A stretch of DNA of 36,528 nt, taken from a virus. Of the stretch, positions 1,632 through 36,218 are shown in pieces (the first letter of the stretch is position 1; the number at the start of each line of letters is the position of its first letter). The translations under genes and the position numbers were made by a program. The notes below the pieces were generated by a model. The model made no database searches, was not told where the DNA came from, and was given only the letters and a program-made list of their open reading frames with translations. The stretch covers positions 1 to 36,528 of IMG/VR virus record IMGVR_UViG_3300037264_000514. One strand, written 5' to 3'.

Positions 1632-1925
1632 ATGAAAGTAGAACGTAGTATGAGTAAAAAAATTGATATTTTGAAATTAGCTATCAGTGACTCCGTGAAG
1701 AAGTTTTCAAAGGATTATGATCGTGCAATATCGGTTTTAACGTTGCTTGAGCAAAACGGTTTGAGAATCGTTAAAAAATCAACCAAGAGCAAAATACAAA
1801 TTAAAGGTTATGTGAAAATAATCATTACTAATACTAGTACAGATGGAGATGCCCAGGTAACCCCATTAGAAAATCGGCTAGTATGCCCAAACGCAATTGT
1901 TGGTACTTATGTAGCGACACCCTAA
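1632..1925 (+). CDS. Hypothetical protein with CPNAIVG tail
   Basis: Unrecognised small protein of 97 aa from the ATG at 1632, or 91 aa from the ATG at 1650 (MSKKIDILKLAIS). Neither start has a strong ribosome site, and the frame is open back to a GTG at 1599. The body is lysine-rich (KKSTKSKIQIKGYVKIII) with a helical N-terminal half and a probable short beta hairpin. The C-terminal CPNAIVGTYVATP matches the end of the first gene in the window. The region is more A+T-rich than the structural genes. Function unknown. Confidence 0.55.
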   Translation: MKVERSMSKKIDILKLAISDSVKKFSKDYDRAISVLTLLEQNGLRIVKKSTKSKIQIKGYVKIIITNTSTDGDAQVTPLENRLVCPNAIVGTYVATP

Positions 1926-2036
1926 TAAACAAACTTTGAATCCCTAGATTGTCTAGGAATTCCCATAGGGAATGTGCTGGCGTGTCGCATGTCCCAAGGT
2001 AAAACCTGTACGCCAAGAGGAAGAAGCAAAATGAAA
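1879..2036 (+). repeat. Long direct repeat, copy 2 (gene tail plus leader)
   Basis: Second copy of the 241-398 module. It again joins the tail of one gene to the leader and start codon of another. Of the 11 differences from copy 1, one lies in a hairpin loop and two lie in the long stem, where they leave G-U pairs. None disrupts hairpin 1 or 2. Confidence 0.9.
1943..2023 (+). promoter_or_regulatory. Structured leader of the 2031 gene (copy 2)
   Basis: Hairpin 1 is at 1943-1957 (loop TTG instead of TCG) and hairpin 2 at 1959-1973, both otherwise identical to copy 1. In hairpin 3, TGGCGTGT (1978-1985) pairs with GTACGCCA (2008-2015). The two changes from copy 1 convert C-G to U-G and G-C to G-U, so the stem can still form. 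The Shine-Dalgarno-like AAGAGGAAG follows directly. The same two changes are also silent cysteine changes in the frame open from 1974, so a coding explanation remains possible. Confidence 0.65.
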
Positions 2037-2516
2037 CCACGAGTAGGAATTACGTCAATCCACAAATTAGAATCATCCGCACTAGACGCAATAGCCGATT
2101 CTATTGATTTAACTTTTGAGAGAGCGAGACTAGACGAAACAAAACGGCTTACAGAAGAAAACCCACGACTAGACGAATACGAAATTGACGCTCTTGTCGA
2201 CGAAAAAATGGAATGTTTTGAAACAGACTCTTGGGAAATGTTATGGGGTGCATGGGAAAAAAATGACCATGGAAAATACATTATATCTCCATCAAAAGGT
2301 GAATTCGCCGCTACGTATAACTCAGACACGGGTATAGTATGCGTCGAGTATTCCATTTACACTGCTGAATGTCACCATACGTCGCCCTGCTACGTCATGT
2401 CCGATGGATCCGGACCATGCGGTGACCTGGACACAAAAGGCAACTCGGTTGTGGCGTACACGTTACCGCCTGAATATTTTTCAAATAAGGAAACTTATGT
2501 ATGCTTGCAAGCATAA
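2031..2516 (+). CDS. Hypothetical 161-aa acidic protein
   Basis: I do not recognise this protein. ATG at 2031 has AAGAGGAAG 8 nt upstream, as in the DUF932 gene. The N-terminal 70 residues are strongly helical and charged (ERARLDETKRLTEENPRLDE). The C-terminal half is beta-like and carries several Cys and His residues (ECHHTSPC), possibly a metal site. The gene is more A+T-rich than the late operon. It ends within a palindrome, ATGCTTGCAAGCAT (2501-2514), that overlaps its last codons. Confidence 0.65.
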   Translation: MKPRVGITSIHKLESSALDAIADSIDLTFERARLDETKRLTEENPRLDEYEIDALVDEKMECFETDSWEMLWGAWEKNDHGKYIISPSKGEFAATYNSDTGIVCVEYSIYTAECHHTSPCYVMSDGSGPCGDLDTKGNSVVAYTLPPEYFSNKETYVCLQA

Positions 2517-2655
2517 GCCAAACTTATGCCAACCGACATTTATGAGTAGTTAAAGTAATACATTAACTATTGTCTCACTCCACGTTTGCACCGTATGGTC
2601 ACCCTTCCCTCGTTCAACAAAAACTTTCGCCCAACAATCTATAGGCCACGCGCCT

Positions 2656-2704
2656 AGCCTTGAGCCTTGAGCCTTGAGCCTTGAGCCTTGAGCCTTGAGC
2701 CTAG
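2656..2704. repeat. AGCCTTG heptamer tandem array
   Basis: Six perfect AGCCTTG units run from 2656 to 2697, followed by a seventh imperfect unit, AGCCTAG. The sequence CCTAGCCTTG flanks the array on both sides. Further single copies of TAGCCTTGAGCC occur near 2855. This is an iteron-like or slippage-prone microsatellite; on the minus strand it reads CAAGGCT. Confidence 0.9.
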
Positions 2705-2720
2705 CCTTGCGCGCACGCCA

Positions 2721-2755
2721 CGAGGTTCGAGGTTCGAGGTCCACAAGTTCGAACC
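2721..2755. repeat. CGAGGTT heptamers and inverted repeat
   Basis: CGAGGTT occurs at 2721-2727 and 2728-2734, with a partial third unit at 2735-2740. The last unit joins a perfect 7-bp inverted repeat, GGTTCGA (2731-2737) with TCGAACC (2749-2755). GTTCGAACC recalls a tRNA T-arm, but no acceptor, D or anticodon arm can be built around it. Confidence 0.75.
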
Positions 2756-2893
2756 ATATAGCCGCGTATCATCGGTGCTAGATGCCTTGCTGCAACTATC
2801 CTTGTGCCACGCGCCTAGTGCCTTGTGTGTATGGCCATGGTTCATGGTAGCGCGTAGCCTTGAGCCGCCTATCGCGTATGGTGGGCAATGGGG

Positions 2894-2943
2894 CTGTCTC
2901 ACGGATAGGGGGGGCTAGGGGCGGTTGGTATGTTGTGAGATAG
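2894..2943. repeat. Nine-bp inverted repeat before the late operon
   Basis: CTGTCTCAC (2894-2902) pairs with GTGAGATAG (2935-2943), including one G-U. The enclosed segment carries a run of seven G, and a C-rich tract follows outside. This may be a terminator-like, operator or origin structure. It is 80 bases upstream of the terminase small subunit gene. Confidence 0.5.
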
Positions 2944-3023
2944 ACCGTCCCCCCCGCCCAAAATTTTTGGAGCCTACCCCACTTTACCCTTTCATGTAGT
3001 TGCATGTAAGCTATACTCACGTA

Positions 3024-3758
3024 ATGAACGATCTAGCACAGCTTAAATACCCGAATTCGATCCCCGAGGGCAAGTTGGACAATGCGGTAGACCCTGCCCA
3101 TGTGCAGGAGTACGCGAGTAAGTACTCTGAGGCTATTCTGTTGGTTCCCCATAAAGTGCAGAGGTCCATGCTTTGGGTAGCGGGTGAGCACGCACAGTTA
3201 GACGAGCGGCAGTTGGAGCATAGGTGTGCTCCCAATCCCAAGACGAAGGTGCTGCGGGTAAACTTCTGGAACGAGTACTACGCAGCGATCCGCGAGGGTC
3301 GGAAGATGTCGATGATGAATGTGTATCGGACGGTTTGTACTCATGTGTGGTTTTACACCAAGCTCGACCGTCGGGAGTCGTGCGTGTGGATGTTCAGGCC
3401 CACTACGGATTACAACTCGTTTATGGAAGAGCAGCTGCACAAGGGGTTGCAGCGCATCGGGGAGATCTTAGCCCTGCCCATCGAGGTGAACGGGAAGGTG
3501 AGTACGCCCACGGCAAACCTGATTTTGAAGACGGTGCAGATGGTAGAGAATCGGGTGAAGGGTGCGGTAGTGCAGAAGCACGAGCATAAGAACTTGAACC
3601 TATCTCTCAGTGCGGATTCGGTGATGCCGAAGGACTTGATCGAACTGGAGAAGAAGATCGCGCTACTAGAGGCTAGCGGTGGTGTTCCAGTGGGGGGTGA
3701 TGAAGAGGATGAGGAGGCTGTATTGCTCCCCGAACCCACTCCGAGCGTTGCCGAGTGA
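3024..3758 (+). CDS. terS: Putative terminase small subunit
   Basis: A 244-aa protein assigned mainly by position: it overlaps the large terminase gene by 4 nt (GTGA) at the start of the late operon. It would recognise phage DNA and start packaging. The N-terminal half is mixed helical with several aromatic residues; a central region (KVSTPTANLILKTVQMVENR) is followed by a highly acidic C-terminal tail (GGDEEDEEAVLLPEP). No clear helix-turn-helix stands out. The frame is open from a TTG at 3000, but ATG at 3024 is the first normal start; no strong ribosome site precedes either. Role is inferred from context. Confidence 0.65.
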   Translation: MNDLAQLKYPNSIPEGKLDNAVDPAHVQEYASKYSEAILLVPHKVQRSMLWVAGEHAQLDERQLEHRCAPNPKTKVLRVNFWNEYYAAIREGRKMSMMNVYRTVCTHVWFYTKLDRRESCVWMFRPTTDYNSFMEEQLHKGLQRIGEILALPIEVNGKVSTPTANLILKTVQMVENRVKGAVVQKHEHKNLNLSLSADSVMPKDLIELEKKIALLEASGGVPVGGDEEDEEAVLLPEPTPSVAE

Positions 3759-5266
3759 GTGTGGACGGCGAGCCGTTAAAGAATCAATATGCGGCGTTGA
3801 AACGAAAGCACGACCTTTTAGAGCATAAGATCAAGTTACAGAAGGGGCTTCCACATCTTTACAGGTGGAAGAACTACGCATGGGCGGATAAGTTCCTAAA
3901 GAGCACGAACAAGATCAACTTAATTTGTGCAGCCAACCAGATCAGCAAGTCGAGTAGCCAGATTCGCAAAGCAATTGATTGGGCAACGAATAGGGCGATA
4001 TGGCCTAAGTTGTGGAAGGGTGAGCCTTTACAGTTTTGGTATTTGTACCCGACGAAGGATGTGGCTTCGATTGAGTTTGAAAAGAAGTGGGTTCCTGAGT
4101 TCCTTCCTGCGGGAGAGTACAAAGATTCCCCGCAATACGGGTGGAAGGAGGAGTGGAAGGGTGGGCATATCCAAGCCATCCACTTCAACACAGGGGTAAG
4201 CATCTACTTCAAGGCATACGCACAGGACGTACAGCATCTTCAGACGGGAACAGTGCATTATGTGGCGTGCGATGAGGAGATGCCGGAAAATCTATTCGAC
4301 GAGTTAATGTTGCGGCTGGCGGCGACGGATGGGTACTTCAGCATGGTCTTCACGGCCACGTTGGGCCAGGAATTCTGGCGAAAGGCCATCGAGGGTCGGG
4401 GTGAGGAGGAGTCTTTCCCCACCGCGTTCAAGCAGCAGGTGTCGATGTACGACTGTCTTGCGTATATGGACGGTACGCCTGGTGCGTTTACGGATGAGAA
4501 GATCAGCAGGATCAAGTCTTTGTGTAGATCTGAGGTTGAGGTTCAGCGTCGTGTGTACGGAAAGTTTGTTGCTGATACTGGGCTGATCTACGAGACATTC
4601 GACAGGAAGCGGCACTATCTGAAGGGGCATCCCGTTCCCCGCGACTGGCACATATACGCGGGAGTAGACCCAGGGGGTGGAGGGGAGTCTGCCCATCCTG
4701 CTGCGATTGCATTCGTAGCGTGCGACTCGGTGTACAAGCAGCTTCGCGTAGTGGAGTGCTGGCGTGGGGACAAGCAGTTGACCACGGCGGGGGACGTACT
4801 GTCTAAGTACATCGAGTTGAGGAATGCGCGGGGGTTTCGGGTTACGCAGGCATTCTTTGACTGGGCGGCAAAAGACTTCGGGACGATTGCCACGCGCATG
4901 GGCGAGCCGTTTATTCCTGCGGAGAAGAGTCATGAGATTGGAGAGGCGGCACTAAACGTGCTGTTCCGGCACGACATGCTGAAGGTTTACGAGAGTTCGG
5001 AGGCTGAGAAGCTGGTTGTAGAGTTTTCCACACTTCGCCACGGGATGCCCAAGCGCAGGCGTCTTGATGACCTATCGGACGCGGTGAGGTATGCGGTGTC
5101 CAAGATTACTATTGACTGGAATGCCATAACGCCGTTGACTGCCCAGGTAGAAGAGCGGATTCCGACCGAGGCTGACCTTCGCAGGCAGGCGTTCGAGGCT
5201 GTAGGGGTATCAGAAGAGGAGATTTCTCGTGAGTTCAAAGAGTGGAATGAAGCCTATGGCAACTAG
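3755..5266 (+). CDS. terL: Terminase large subunit (packaging ATPase-nuclease)
   Basis: A 503-aa motor that pumps DNA into the prohead and cuts concatemers. The ATPase P-loop is at residues 59-66 (AANQISKS), where the usual Gly before Lys is Ser. Walker B is VHYVACDEE (167-175) with D173 and E174. The coupling motif FTATLG is at 199-204. The RNase H-like nuclease begins with YAGVDPGG (D305), continues with FFDWAAKD (D369) and ends with DDLSDAVRY (around 438-446), giving the expected acidic triad. GTG start overlaps the small subunit stop by 4 nt, which implies translational coupling. Length is normal for the family. Confidence 0.95.
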   Translation: MSVDGEPLKNQYAALKRKHDLLEHKIKLQKGLPHLYRWKNYAWADKFLKSTNKINLICAANQISKSSSQIRKAIDWATNRAIWPKLWKGEPLQFWYLYPTKDVASIEFEKKWVPEFLPAGEYKDSPQYGWKEEWKGGHIQAIHFNTGVSIYFKAYAQDVQHLQTGTVHYVACDEEMPENLFDELMLRLAATDGYFSMVFTATLGQEFWRKAIEGRGEEESFPTAFKQQVSMYDCLAYMDGTPGAFTDEKISRIKSLCRSEVEVQRRVYGKFVADTGLIYETFDRKRHYLKGHPVPRDWHIYAGVDPGGGGESAHPAAIAFVACDSVYKQLRVVECWRGDKQLTTAGDVLSKYIELRNARGFRVTQAFFDWAAKDFGTIATRMGEPFIPAEKSHEIGEAALNVLFRHDMLKVYESSEAEKLVVEFSTLRHGMPKRRRLDDLSDAVRYAVSKITIDWNAITPLTAQVEERIPTEADLRRQAFEAVGVSEEEISREFKEWNEAYGN

Positions 5267-10474: not shown

Positions 10475-10480
10475 TATTCG

Positions 10481-10517
10481 GTGGGGGAGTGGTGGGCGAA
10501 CCCTGCCCCTCCCCCAC
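10481..10517 (+). terminator. GC-rich hairpin after the capsid genes
   Basis: GTGGGGGAG (10481-10489) pairs perfectly with CTCCCCCAC (10509-10517); inner GGGC and GCCC can extend it. No T-run follows (ATCTAATCC). This may be a partial terminator that gives coat genes more mRNA than tail genes, or an RNA 3-prime stabiliser. Confidence 0.55.
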
Positions 10518-10538
10518 ATCTAATCCAGGGGGTTTATA

Positions 10539-12042: not shown

Positions 12043-12330
12043 ATGCGAAAGATCGAACGCCGAGACGGCATCATGATGAACAATGTTAGGGTGCTTCTCA
12101 AGCGTTCGGTCTTTCGTGAGCTTTCAATGGAAGAGATCATGGCGGCCTCACAAGCCTACGCTTGGACGTTGGAGTTTACATCTGAGATGGAGCGCGAGGG
12201 TGAAACCAACGCGGCTCTAGCAAGCGCTAAGTGCGTGGACCCAGGCCCCGTTCCCGTCCCAGATCCCGCTCCCGCCACTGTCGTTGCGGCACAGAAAAAA
12301 GGAACTAAGTCGGGCAAGGCGCGTAAATGA
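12043..12330 (+). CDS. Hypothetical 95-aa protein
   Basis: Helical N-terminal two thirds (MEEIMAASQAYAWTLEF), then a Pro/Val-rich linker (DPGPVPVPDPAPATVV) and a basic tail (KKGTKSGKARK). Such linkers join small domains in virion proteins. I do not recognise the family. ATG 12043 has AAAGGG just upstream. The stop overlaps the next ATG by 4 nt. Confidence 0.6.
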   Translation: MRKIERRDGIMMNNVRVLLKRSVFRELSMEEIMAASQAYAWTLEFTSEMEREGETNAALASAKCVDPGPVPVPDPAPATVVAAQKKGTKSGKARK

Positions 12331-35206: not shown

Positions 35207-35397
35207 CAATGACCCCATATCTGGACTAACGTCCATACCAGTAGATTCAATGCAAGCCCCACGAGTGAAGCCGCCATCATCGTGGTTCCCGATGTTTCCA
35301 CTGTTTTGTTTTCAATCGCAGCACCGAATGAACCTATGCTCACACCCGTGACAAACAATACCCCGAGGGTCGCCGCTACTTTAAACCAAATGCTCAT
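35206..35397 (-). CDS. Two-helix membrane protein
   Basis: A 63-aa protein with two clear membrane segments: residues about 5-26 (FKVAATLGVLFVTGVSIGSF) and about 40-60 (MAASLVGLALNLLVWTLVQI). Early phage membrane proteins of this size include host-takeover or superinfection-exclusion factors; a holin is less likely outside the lysis region. Coupled by ATGA to the gene before. Confidence 0.65.
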   Translation of the reverse strand: MSIWFKVAATLGVLFVTGVSIGSFGAAIENKTVETSGTTMMAASLVGLALNLLVWTLVQIWGH

Positions 35398-35675
35398 TTT
35401 AAGATCCCCTTAAGCGTTTGAATCTGCTCGGCCATGCGTGCATTCTCGTCCTCAAGTTTCTTGACGTACTCGTGCTCTTTCAGCACTAGCCGCACCGCCT
35501 GTCTTAACTCTATGTTGAAACCGGGTCCGTGGGTTTGAACAAGAACGGGTTGGGTTTCCTCAATGACGAGTAACCCTTTCCCCACGAGATCGCCCAGTTG
35601 GTCTAGGATTATTTTCTCTTTCTGTTTTAAAACACTATTTAAAAGATCATCTCTTAAACTATCAACGCCTATCAT
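35394..35675 (-). CDS. Coiled-coil early protein
   Basis: A 93-aa protein. ATG 35675 has GGAGGAG at usable spacing; the start at 35732 would lie within RNA element A. Helical throughout, ending in a coiled coil (EHEYVKKLEDENARMAEQIQ). A minimal ATG-TAG pair sits between the ribosome site and the ATG. Not recognised. Confidence 0.65.
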   Translation of the reverse strand: MIGVDSLRDDLLNSVLKQKEKIILDQLGDLVGKGLLVIEETQPVLVQTHGPGFNIELRQAVRLVLKEHEYVKKLEDENARMAEQIQTLKGILK

Positions 35676-35700
35676 TTCTACATCTCCTCCAATTAAAAAT

Positions 35701-35828
35701 CCGCGCAGGCCGCTCGTTACTAACGTCAGCATTTAAGCCATGCAATCCGATCACATGGCACCTGCGCGGTTATCGTTCATGTGAAAAACGCGGCAAACCG
35801 CGCACAGCTCTCGCCGCATGAACGAAAC
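35701..35828 (-). ncRNA. Structured RNA element A
   Basis: Read on the minus strand, TCGTTCATG (35825-35817) and CATGAACGA (35781-35773) close a three-way junction. It holds CGGC-GAGA-GCTG (35816-35805), a 2-nt linker TG, CGCGG-TTTG-CCGCG (35802-35789) and a 7-nt tail. Three bases later CCGCGCAGG/CCTGCGCGG (35769-35761, 35709-35701) closes a second junction with GCCATG/CATGGC (35759-35754, 35742-35737) and CGTT/AACG (35725-35722, 35718-35715). GAGA is a GNRA loop only on this strand. ATTTTTAA follows the last stem, so it may also terminate. Linkers mirror element B. Confidence 0.7.
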
Positions 35829-36020
35829 TCATTCATTTCTTGTAATCAGAACCGTATTAGACCTTTCGTCGTATTCCACTGATTTAGCTTCCCCGTAACA
35901 ATCGCACCCCTCGTGCGAAACCTTGGCATCCATAGGGAGCGCGGAGAGAAGGTTTATTAATTCCCCCACAGTTAATATATGCTCTTGATCCTGTTTAATA
36001 TCGACGGCCTCGTTACTCAT
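35829..36020 (-). CDS. 63-aa early protein
   Basis: Small acidic protein: LTVGELINLLSALPMDAKVS followed by an HEGCDCYGEAKSVEYDERSN segment. The first part resembles short phage proteins with an LxxLP-type helix, of unknown role. It lies between RNA elements B and A, its stop 4 bases before A. A 15-codon ORF upstream ends on its ATG (ATGA). Confidence 0.65.
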   Translation of the reverse strand: MSNEAVDIKQDQEHILTVGELINLLSALPMDAKVSHEGCDCYGEAKSVEYDERSNTVLITRNE

Positions 36021-36064
36021 TTTATTCCCAATGCCTCTCTAGCTATTTTCGTACTCAACTCCAT
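36017..36064 (-). CDS. Possible 15-aa leader peptide
   Basis: ATG at 36064 opens MELSTKIAREALGIK and stops at a TGA overlapping the next ATG by 4 nt. It begins 12 bases after element B ends. No ribosome site is visible. It could couple translation to element B folding, or be chance. Confidence 0.3.
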   Translation of the reverse strand: MELSTKIAREALGIK

Positions 36065-36075
36065 TGTTTAATAAA

Positions 36076-36196
36076 ACGCGTGGGCCGGAACGCTCGTCCC
36101 TGCTCATACATCTCTTGCGAGACACCCACGCGTCTTCTCGTTCATGTTACCTACCAGCTCGGGTGCTGGCAGCTCTTACGAGCCATGAACGAAACT
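36076..36196 (-). ncRNA. Structured RNA element B
   Basis: Minus-strand counterpart of element A. TCGTTCATG (36192-36184) pairs with CATGAACGA (36146-36138). Inside are GCTC-GTAA-GAGC (36183-36172), linker TG, CCAGC-ACCCGA-GCTGG (36169-36154) and a 7-nt tail. Four bases later ACGCGTGGG/CCCACGCGT (36133-36125, 36084-36076) encloses GTCTC-GCAA-GAGAT (36123-36110) and GGGAC-GAGC-GTTCC (36100-36087). GTAA and GCAA are GNRA loops. It lies between the truncated 36219 gene and the 36020 gene. TTTTATT follows the final stem. Confidence 0.7.
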
Positions 36197-36218
36197 TTTT
36201 TATCTCCAAGCGCCCATA

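Follow-up and report, generated by a model that had tools for sequence, protein, structure and literature searches.

Elements A and B, two diverged copies of a structured RNA motif of unusual layout, are present in one uncultivated phage, and we conclude that the motif is real. The phage is represented by the IMG/VR record IMGVR_UViG_3300037264_000514, a linear sequence of 36,528 bases from an uncultivated bacterial virus; the whole of this stretch is referred to as the window. Element A (positions 35701–35828, minus strand) and element B (36076–36196, minus strand) were delineated by a predicted fold, a layout descriptor, and a covariance model. Each is predicted to form a double three-way junction.

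The elements are composed of two domains. Domain 1 consists of the closing stem P1 (UCGUUCAUG/CAUGAACGA), an abutting 4-bp GNRA hairpin P2, a second hairpin P3, and a short single strand. Domain 2 is formed by the GC-rich 9-bp stem P4, the adjacent hairpin P5, a joint, and the third hairpin P6. In the predicted fold of element A (minus strand), P1 is built from positions 35817–35825 and 35773–35781, P2 with its GAGA loop from 35805–35816, P3 from 35789–35802, the single strand from 35782–35788, P4 from 35761–35769 and 35701–35709, P5 from 35737–35759, and P6 from 35712–35730. The predicted parts of element B, on the same strand, are P1 at 36184–36192 and 36138–36146, P2 with a GUAA loop at 36172–36183, P3 at 36154–36169, the single strand at 36147–36153, P4 at 36125–36133 and 36076–36084, P5 with a GCAA loop at 36110–36123, and P6 at 36087–36100. 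If stacked, P1 and P2 form 13 bp and P4 and P5 form 14–20 bp, lengths to be compared with the (nearly) continuous duplex of some two helical turns that defines an RNase III processing site. P3 has 6–7 bp in the energy model. P6 is the part least similar between the copies and is bulged in A. The fold predicted for the minus strand agrees with the original prediction that both elements are double three-way junctions, and the order of parts given there stands. The linkers are shorter than stated, because the energy model pairs the putative TG linker and part of the 7-nt strand as an extension of P3. The putative 1-nt T linker is instead a U·G pair, by which P4 reaches 10 bp in A and B alike.

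Pairing within each of the two copies is kept through sequence change. When a covariance model is trained on B alone, A is recovered at 53.6 bits (E 1.8e-9), and the next match reaches 12.9 bits. Deprived of base pairs, this model scores A at 10.3 bits (E 0.02), a comparison that is indicative rather than exact, since the effective training weights of the two models differ. In an alignment fitted to the structure of B, a fit that favors a high pairing count, all modeled pairs with letters in both copies are standard (70/70 cells). Twelve pairs are changed on both sides, a covariation statement that rests on two sequences, the minimum; sliding the partners by 1–3 columns leaves 0 or 1 such changes. 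Outside the closing stem, 11 of the 24 aligned pairs are identical, so the earlier claim that nearly every helix differs yet pairs was right about the pairing and overstated the difference. The compensatory changes and the recovery of A by the B model bear out the view of two diverged copies of one RNA shape. At the level of sequence comparison, it is well supported that A and B share one uncommon fold despite their differing letters. Two copies in one genome can suffice to establish an RNA fold without homologs.

The minus-strand folds of A and B have energies of −58.9 and −57.7 kcal/mol and z-scores of −4.5 and −5.5, respectively, and none of 200 shuffles is as stable as either element on this strand. 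The plus strand also folds (z −5.2 for A and −3.2 for B), as expected of inverted repeats, yet less stably than the minus strand. The GNRA loops lie on the minus strand, which is the coding strand, as had been predicted. The G·U pairs also lie on this strand and become A·C mismatches on the opposite one. This strand preference fits an RNA produced from the coding strand and, taken by itself, is also compatible with a strand-specific single-strand DNA site. A descriptor of the layout (closing stem, abutting hairpin of 4 bp and 4 nt, second hairpin, 4–9 nt, closing stem) matches only A and B on both strands of the whole window. A Markov background gives 0.13 descriptor hits per 36.5-kb strand, and 2.2 Mb of random sequence of the same composition contains no match as strong as A or B. 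When shuffling is confined to the letters between the arms of the closing stems, the domain-1 layout recurs in 0.4% (A) and 0.6% (B) of shuffles and the domain-2 layout in 7% (A) and 5% (B). The domain-1 layout with a GNRA loop is found in about 1e-4 of shuffles.

Profiles of portal, terminase, and internal virion proteins suggest that the phage is podovirus-like. The left part of the window carries structural genes transcribed rightward. The right part, transcribed leftward, encodes a PolA-type DNA polymerase, an SNF2-type helicase, and small genes. A and B are located at the 5′ side of the leftward cluster, as far as the contig extends, and occupy its only gaps longer than 80 bases. The remaining genes of this minus-strand cluster are packed, and most overlap or abut. 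Upstream of B is a gene cut by the contig end (36219–36527, minus strand, no family match), the stop codon of which lies 27 bases before the closing stem of B. The gene between B and A (35829–36020, minus strand) encodes a protein of 63 aa belonging to phrog_21180, to which PHROGs assigns no function, and its UGA stop immediately precedes A. The gene downstream of A (35394–35675, minus strand) encodes 93 aa without a family match; it is served by a strong ribosome-binding site, GGAGGAG, at 35684–35690, outside the fold of A. A stop codon thus closely precedes each element, and the start region that follows is left unmasked; the elements sit 15–60 nt ahead of the next start codon. The flanks are AU-rich, with AGAUAAAAAAGU before B, UUUUAUUAAA after B, and AUUUUUAAUU after A.

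Translation across the elements was considered and rejected. The reading frames stay open for about 25 codons past both stops, lengths reached by chance, and the frame in which the closing stem would be read is not the same for A and B, which speaks against stop-codon read-through or frameshifting. Leader peptides starting from the AUG of the closing stem lack a ribosome-binding site at a usable distance. A slippery-type heptamer, A AAA AAG, is located at 36195–36201 (minus strand), 2 nt ahead of P1 in B; by this point the upstream gene has already ended with its stop codon, and A lacks the heptamer.

The closing stem is kept to the letter. Its 5′ arm with the prefix, AGUUUCGUUCAUG, spans 35817–35829 in A and 36184–36196 in B (minus strand) and is identical in the two, in line with the common closing stem noted originally. 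Over the closing stem and its AGUU prefix, 22/22 columns are identical, compared with 49% of the other aligned columns. At the rate of 11/24, nine identical pairs are expected about once per thousand. Such identity beside a diverged remainder means that the letters matter in addition to the structure, or that the copies have been homogenized. It points to a partner reading the letters. Swapped pairing between the identical arms of A and B would also explain the identity and is possible in principle, although local pairing should win. The sequence identity and the position of the elements 15–60 nt upstream of the next start codon would suit operators, at which a phage protein bound to the closing stem would regulate how the neighboring gene is translated. 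We consider operators quite unlikely, since the fold leaves the start regions unmasked and sequence-specific protein recognition of a perfect RNA stem is uncommon.

Conserved ends, a variable interior, a conserved folded shape, and a position after small genes are shared by A and B with integron attC sites. Accordingly, the elements could be folded single-strand DNA recombination sites that bound gene cassettes, and a 68% homolog of the 63-aa gene does occur within an attC-like cassette array. However, the core sites RYYYAAC ... GTTRRRY are absent from A and B, the closing stem carries its GTT and AAC triplets in the reverse order, and the fold is branched. Moreover, no recombinase was found among the window proteins scanned against Pfam or PHROGs, and in phage KP1 no element flanks the homolog of the 63-aa gene. 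We therefore regard recombination sites of this kind as very unlikely.

We tentatively propose that A and B act in cis as diverged copies of a single element, set between genes in the leftward early/replication cluster of this podovirus-like phage, a role that is plausible though somewhat short of probable. Both elements lie between genes, on the sense strand, and have a stable fold, the marks of an intercistronic element; we infer from the gene order that the surrounding genes of the cluster are co-transcribed. A compact fold with helices of about 10 bp or less at junctions may be a poor substrate for RNase III and would block 3′-to-5′ exonucleases. Cleavage in the AU-rich flanks would then provide the upstream message with a protected 3′ end. 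In this manner, A and B may punctuate the polycistronic mRNA, so that translation and decay of the neighboring genes are unlinked, and a protein of the phage or of the host may recognize the conserved closing stem. The proposed cis role rests on position and shape, as the elements contain no known nuclease site and no homolog was found. It is opposed by the competition of the closing stem of A with a local hairpin, AUGAAUGA/UCGUUCAU, that forms from the final codons of the gene upstream once this coding end is included. The mean pair probability of the closing stem of A is 0.96 for the element alone and 0.13 with flanks of 100–300 nt. No such hairpin competes with the closing stem of B, which is stable in its context (0.99), and the competition in A is therefore not a shared switch.

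A second alternative pairing is seen in A between UGCGCGGUU in P3 and its perfect complement AACCGCGCA, with which P4 begins (35761–35804, minus strand); such a match arises in 0.2% of shuffles. This 9-nt complementarity to the 5′ strand of P4 would make a switch possible if the P4 hairpins were attenuators, and P4 would resemble a terminator in that it is GC-rich and followed by ATTTTTAATT in A or TTTATTAAAC in B. Both functions are highly improbable. The terminator scores are negative (−25 and −12), and a scan for promoters and intrinsic terminators recognized none at A and B. The P3–P4 switch was rejected because the alternative state of A is 9.4 kcal/mol less stable and is not kept in B, where the complementarity is only 5 nt, a length reached by chance in 21% of shuffles.

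Processed stretches between phage genes are known from other systems, with which the proposed cis-acting element can be compared. In phage T4, RNase E sites process polycistronic phage mRNA (PMC3014915). A and B resemble these sites and the RNase III sites of T7 as structured or processed stretches between early polycistronic genes. The T7 sites lie between the genes of the early mRNA, and RNase III sites are long irregular hairpins, unlike A and B, in which helices extend for at most about 10–11 bp before a junction, except for P5 of A stacked on P4. Mobile regulatory cassettes of T4-type phages, which reportedly couple a stem-loop with an early promoter, are likewise repeated stem-loop elements between small early genes, whereas A and B are branched and have no recognized promoter. 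For these cassettes, PMC4177764 cites Arbiol et al. 2010.

The put RNAs of phage HK022 have about 70 nt and two stem-loops, are located one in each of two operons near promoters, and act without a phage protein (PMC9378689). Like putL and putR, A and B are two related structured RNAs of early phage transcripts in one genome, near the 5′ side of the early cluster, and might modify the RNA polymerase transcribing it so that it passes downstream terminators. Such an activity of A and B is improbable: in contrast to the two unbranched stem-loops of put, the elements have about 125 nt and two three-way junctions, both are in one cluster, and the contig does not include the promoter. It is possible, if somewhat unlikely, that A and B are the bodies of small RNAs cut at the AU-rich flanks and acting in trans as a regulator, protein decoy, or counter-defense. 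Their compact, stable, self-contained folds of 120–130 nt would suit such RNAs, and the closing-stem letters and kept shape fit a protein ligand. Nevertheless, no promoter of their own was recognized, no homologs were found, and there is no conserved single-stranded stretch to act as a seed.

For the stabilization of mRNA by a cis-acting element, a simple hairpin would suffice, and the kept branching and closing-stem letters suggest a more specific partner. We consider it unlikely that the two-junction fold with its closing stem of fixed sequence represents a new class of phage RNA that binds RNA polymerase, a nuclease, or a defense protein and changes its action during infection. To our knowledge, few structured RNAs have been described from phage operons, and most of these are hairpins. 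Here a branched RNA has been preserved in two copies by compensatory changes, in a phage that lacks close cultured relatives, which makes it a candidate regulatory or protein-binding motif of a new kind.

The original prediction knew of no named RNA family with this layout, and a search with Rfam 15 covariance models (gathering score or E up to 10) produced no match for A or B. ARAGORN recognized no tRNA or tmRNA. Portal and major capsid proteins have 0 matches in the GenBank phage collection, in which the terminase has distant matches only, and a short-pattern search of IMG/VR found no relative of the helicase. The nearest phages found have at most 56% identity in terminase and 39% in polymerase. 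The model of both copies has no convincing match in 51 related virus records searched in full, nor does the descriptor in 80 polymerase-related loci and the terminase-related records; the apparent hits in terminase and polymerase relatives are intragenic or have a fold without the layout. In IMG/VR, the closing-stem pattern occurs at 8 loci, none of which has the layout, and the closing stem with a GNRA hairpin at 15 loci, every one inside reading frames. No matching element adjoins the homologs of the 63-aa gene in Pseudomonas phage KP1 and 8 IMG/VR loci. A terminase search of genome contigs yielded two loci in two genomes with an RNA match in neither, and a plasmid search gave no match. Homologs with covariation in related phages, which had been suggested as a check, were thus not found, and A and B cannot be called a family beyond this genome. 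Since the relatives available for the search are distant, this absence is not informative for closer relatives. The searched sets may also omit near-identical records.

Other structured elements were encountered in the window and in the searched records. A second duplicated intergenic element, unrelated to A and B, is located at 241–398 and 1879–2036 (plus strand). Its copies of 158 nt are 93% identical and run from the end of one gene through three hairpins into the start of the following one; they differ at GC-to-GU positions in one stem. If the contig ends adjoin, this pair and A and B would flank a divergent early region. In the IMG/VR contig with the 68% homolog of the 63-aa gene (L149), long imperfect hairpins, the ends of which resemble TATAAC...GTTATA, stand between small genes at 1865–4995; this contig has the appearance of an integron cassette array and not of a phage. 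An intergenic RNA of about 200 nt is common to two terminase-related phages (G015, locus L045, 31199–31408; G012, locus L047, 315–506); it is composed of a 19-bp hairpin and a long branched stem, with a strong plus-strand fold and no Rfam match. In the window, a very strong GC-rich hairpin, GGTGGGGGAGTGG...CCCTCCCCCAC, occupies a short gap between structural genes at 10475–10525 (plus strand, z about −6). A hairpin of about 16 bp, CGAAAGATCGAACG...CGTTCGGTCTTTCG, lies within the first codons of a gene at 12044–12118 (plus strand).
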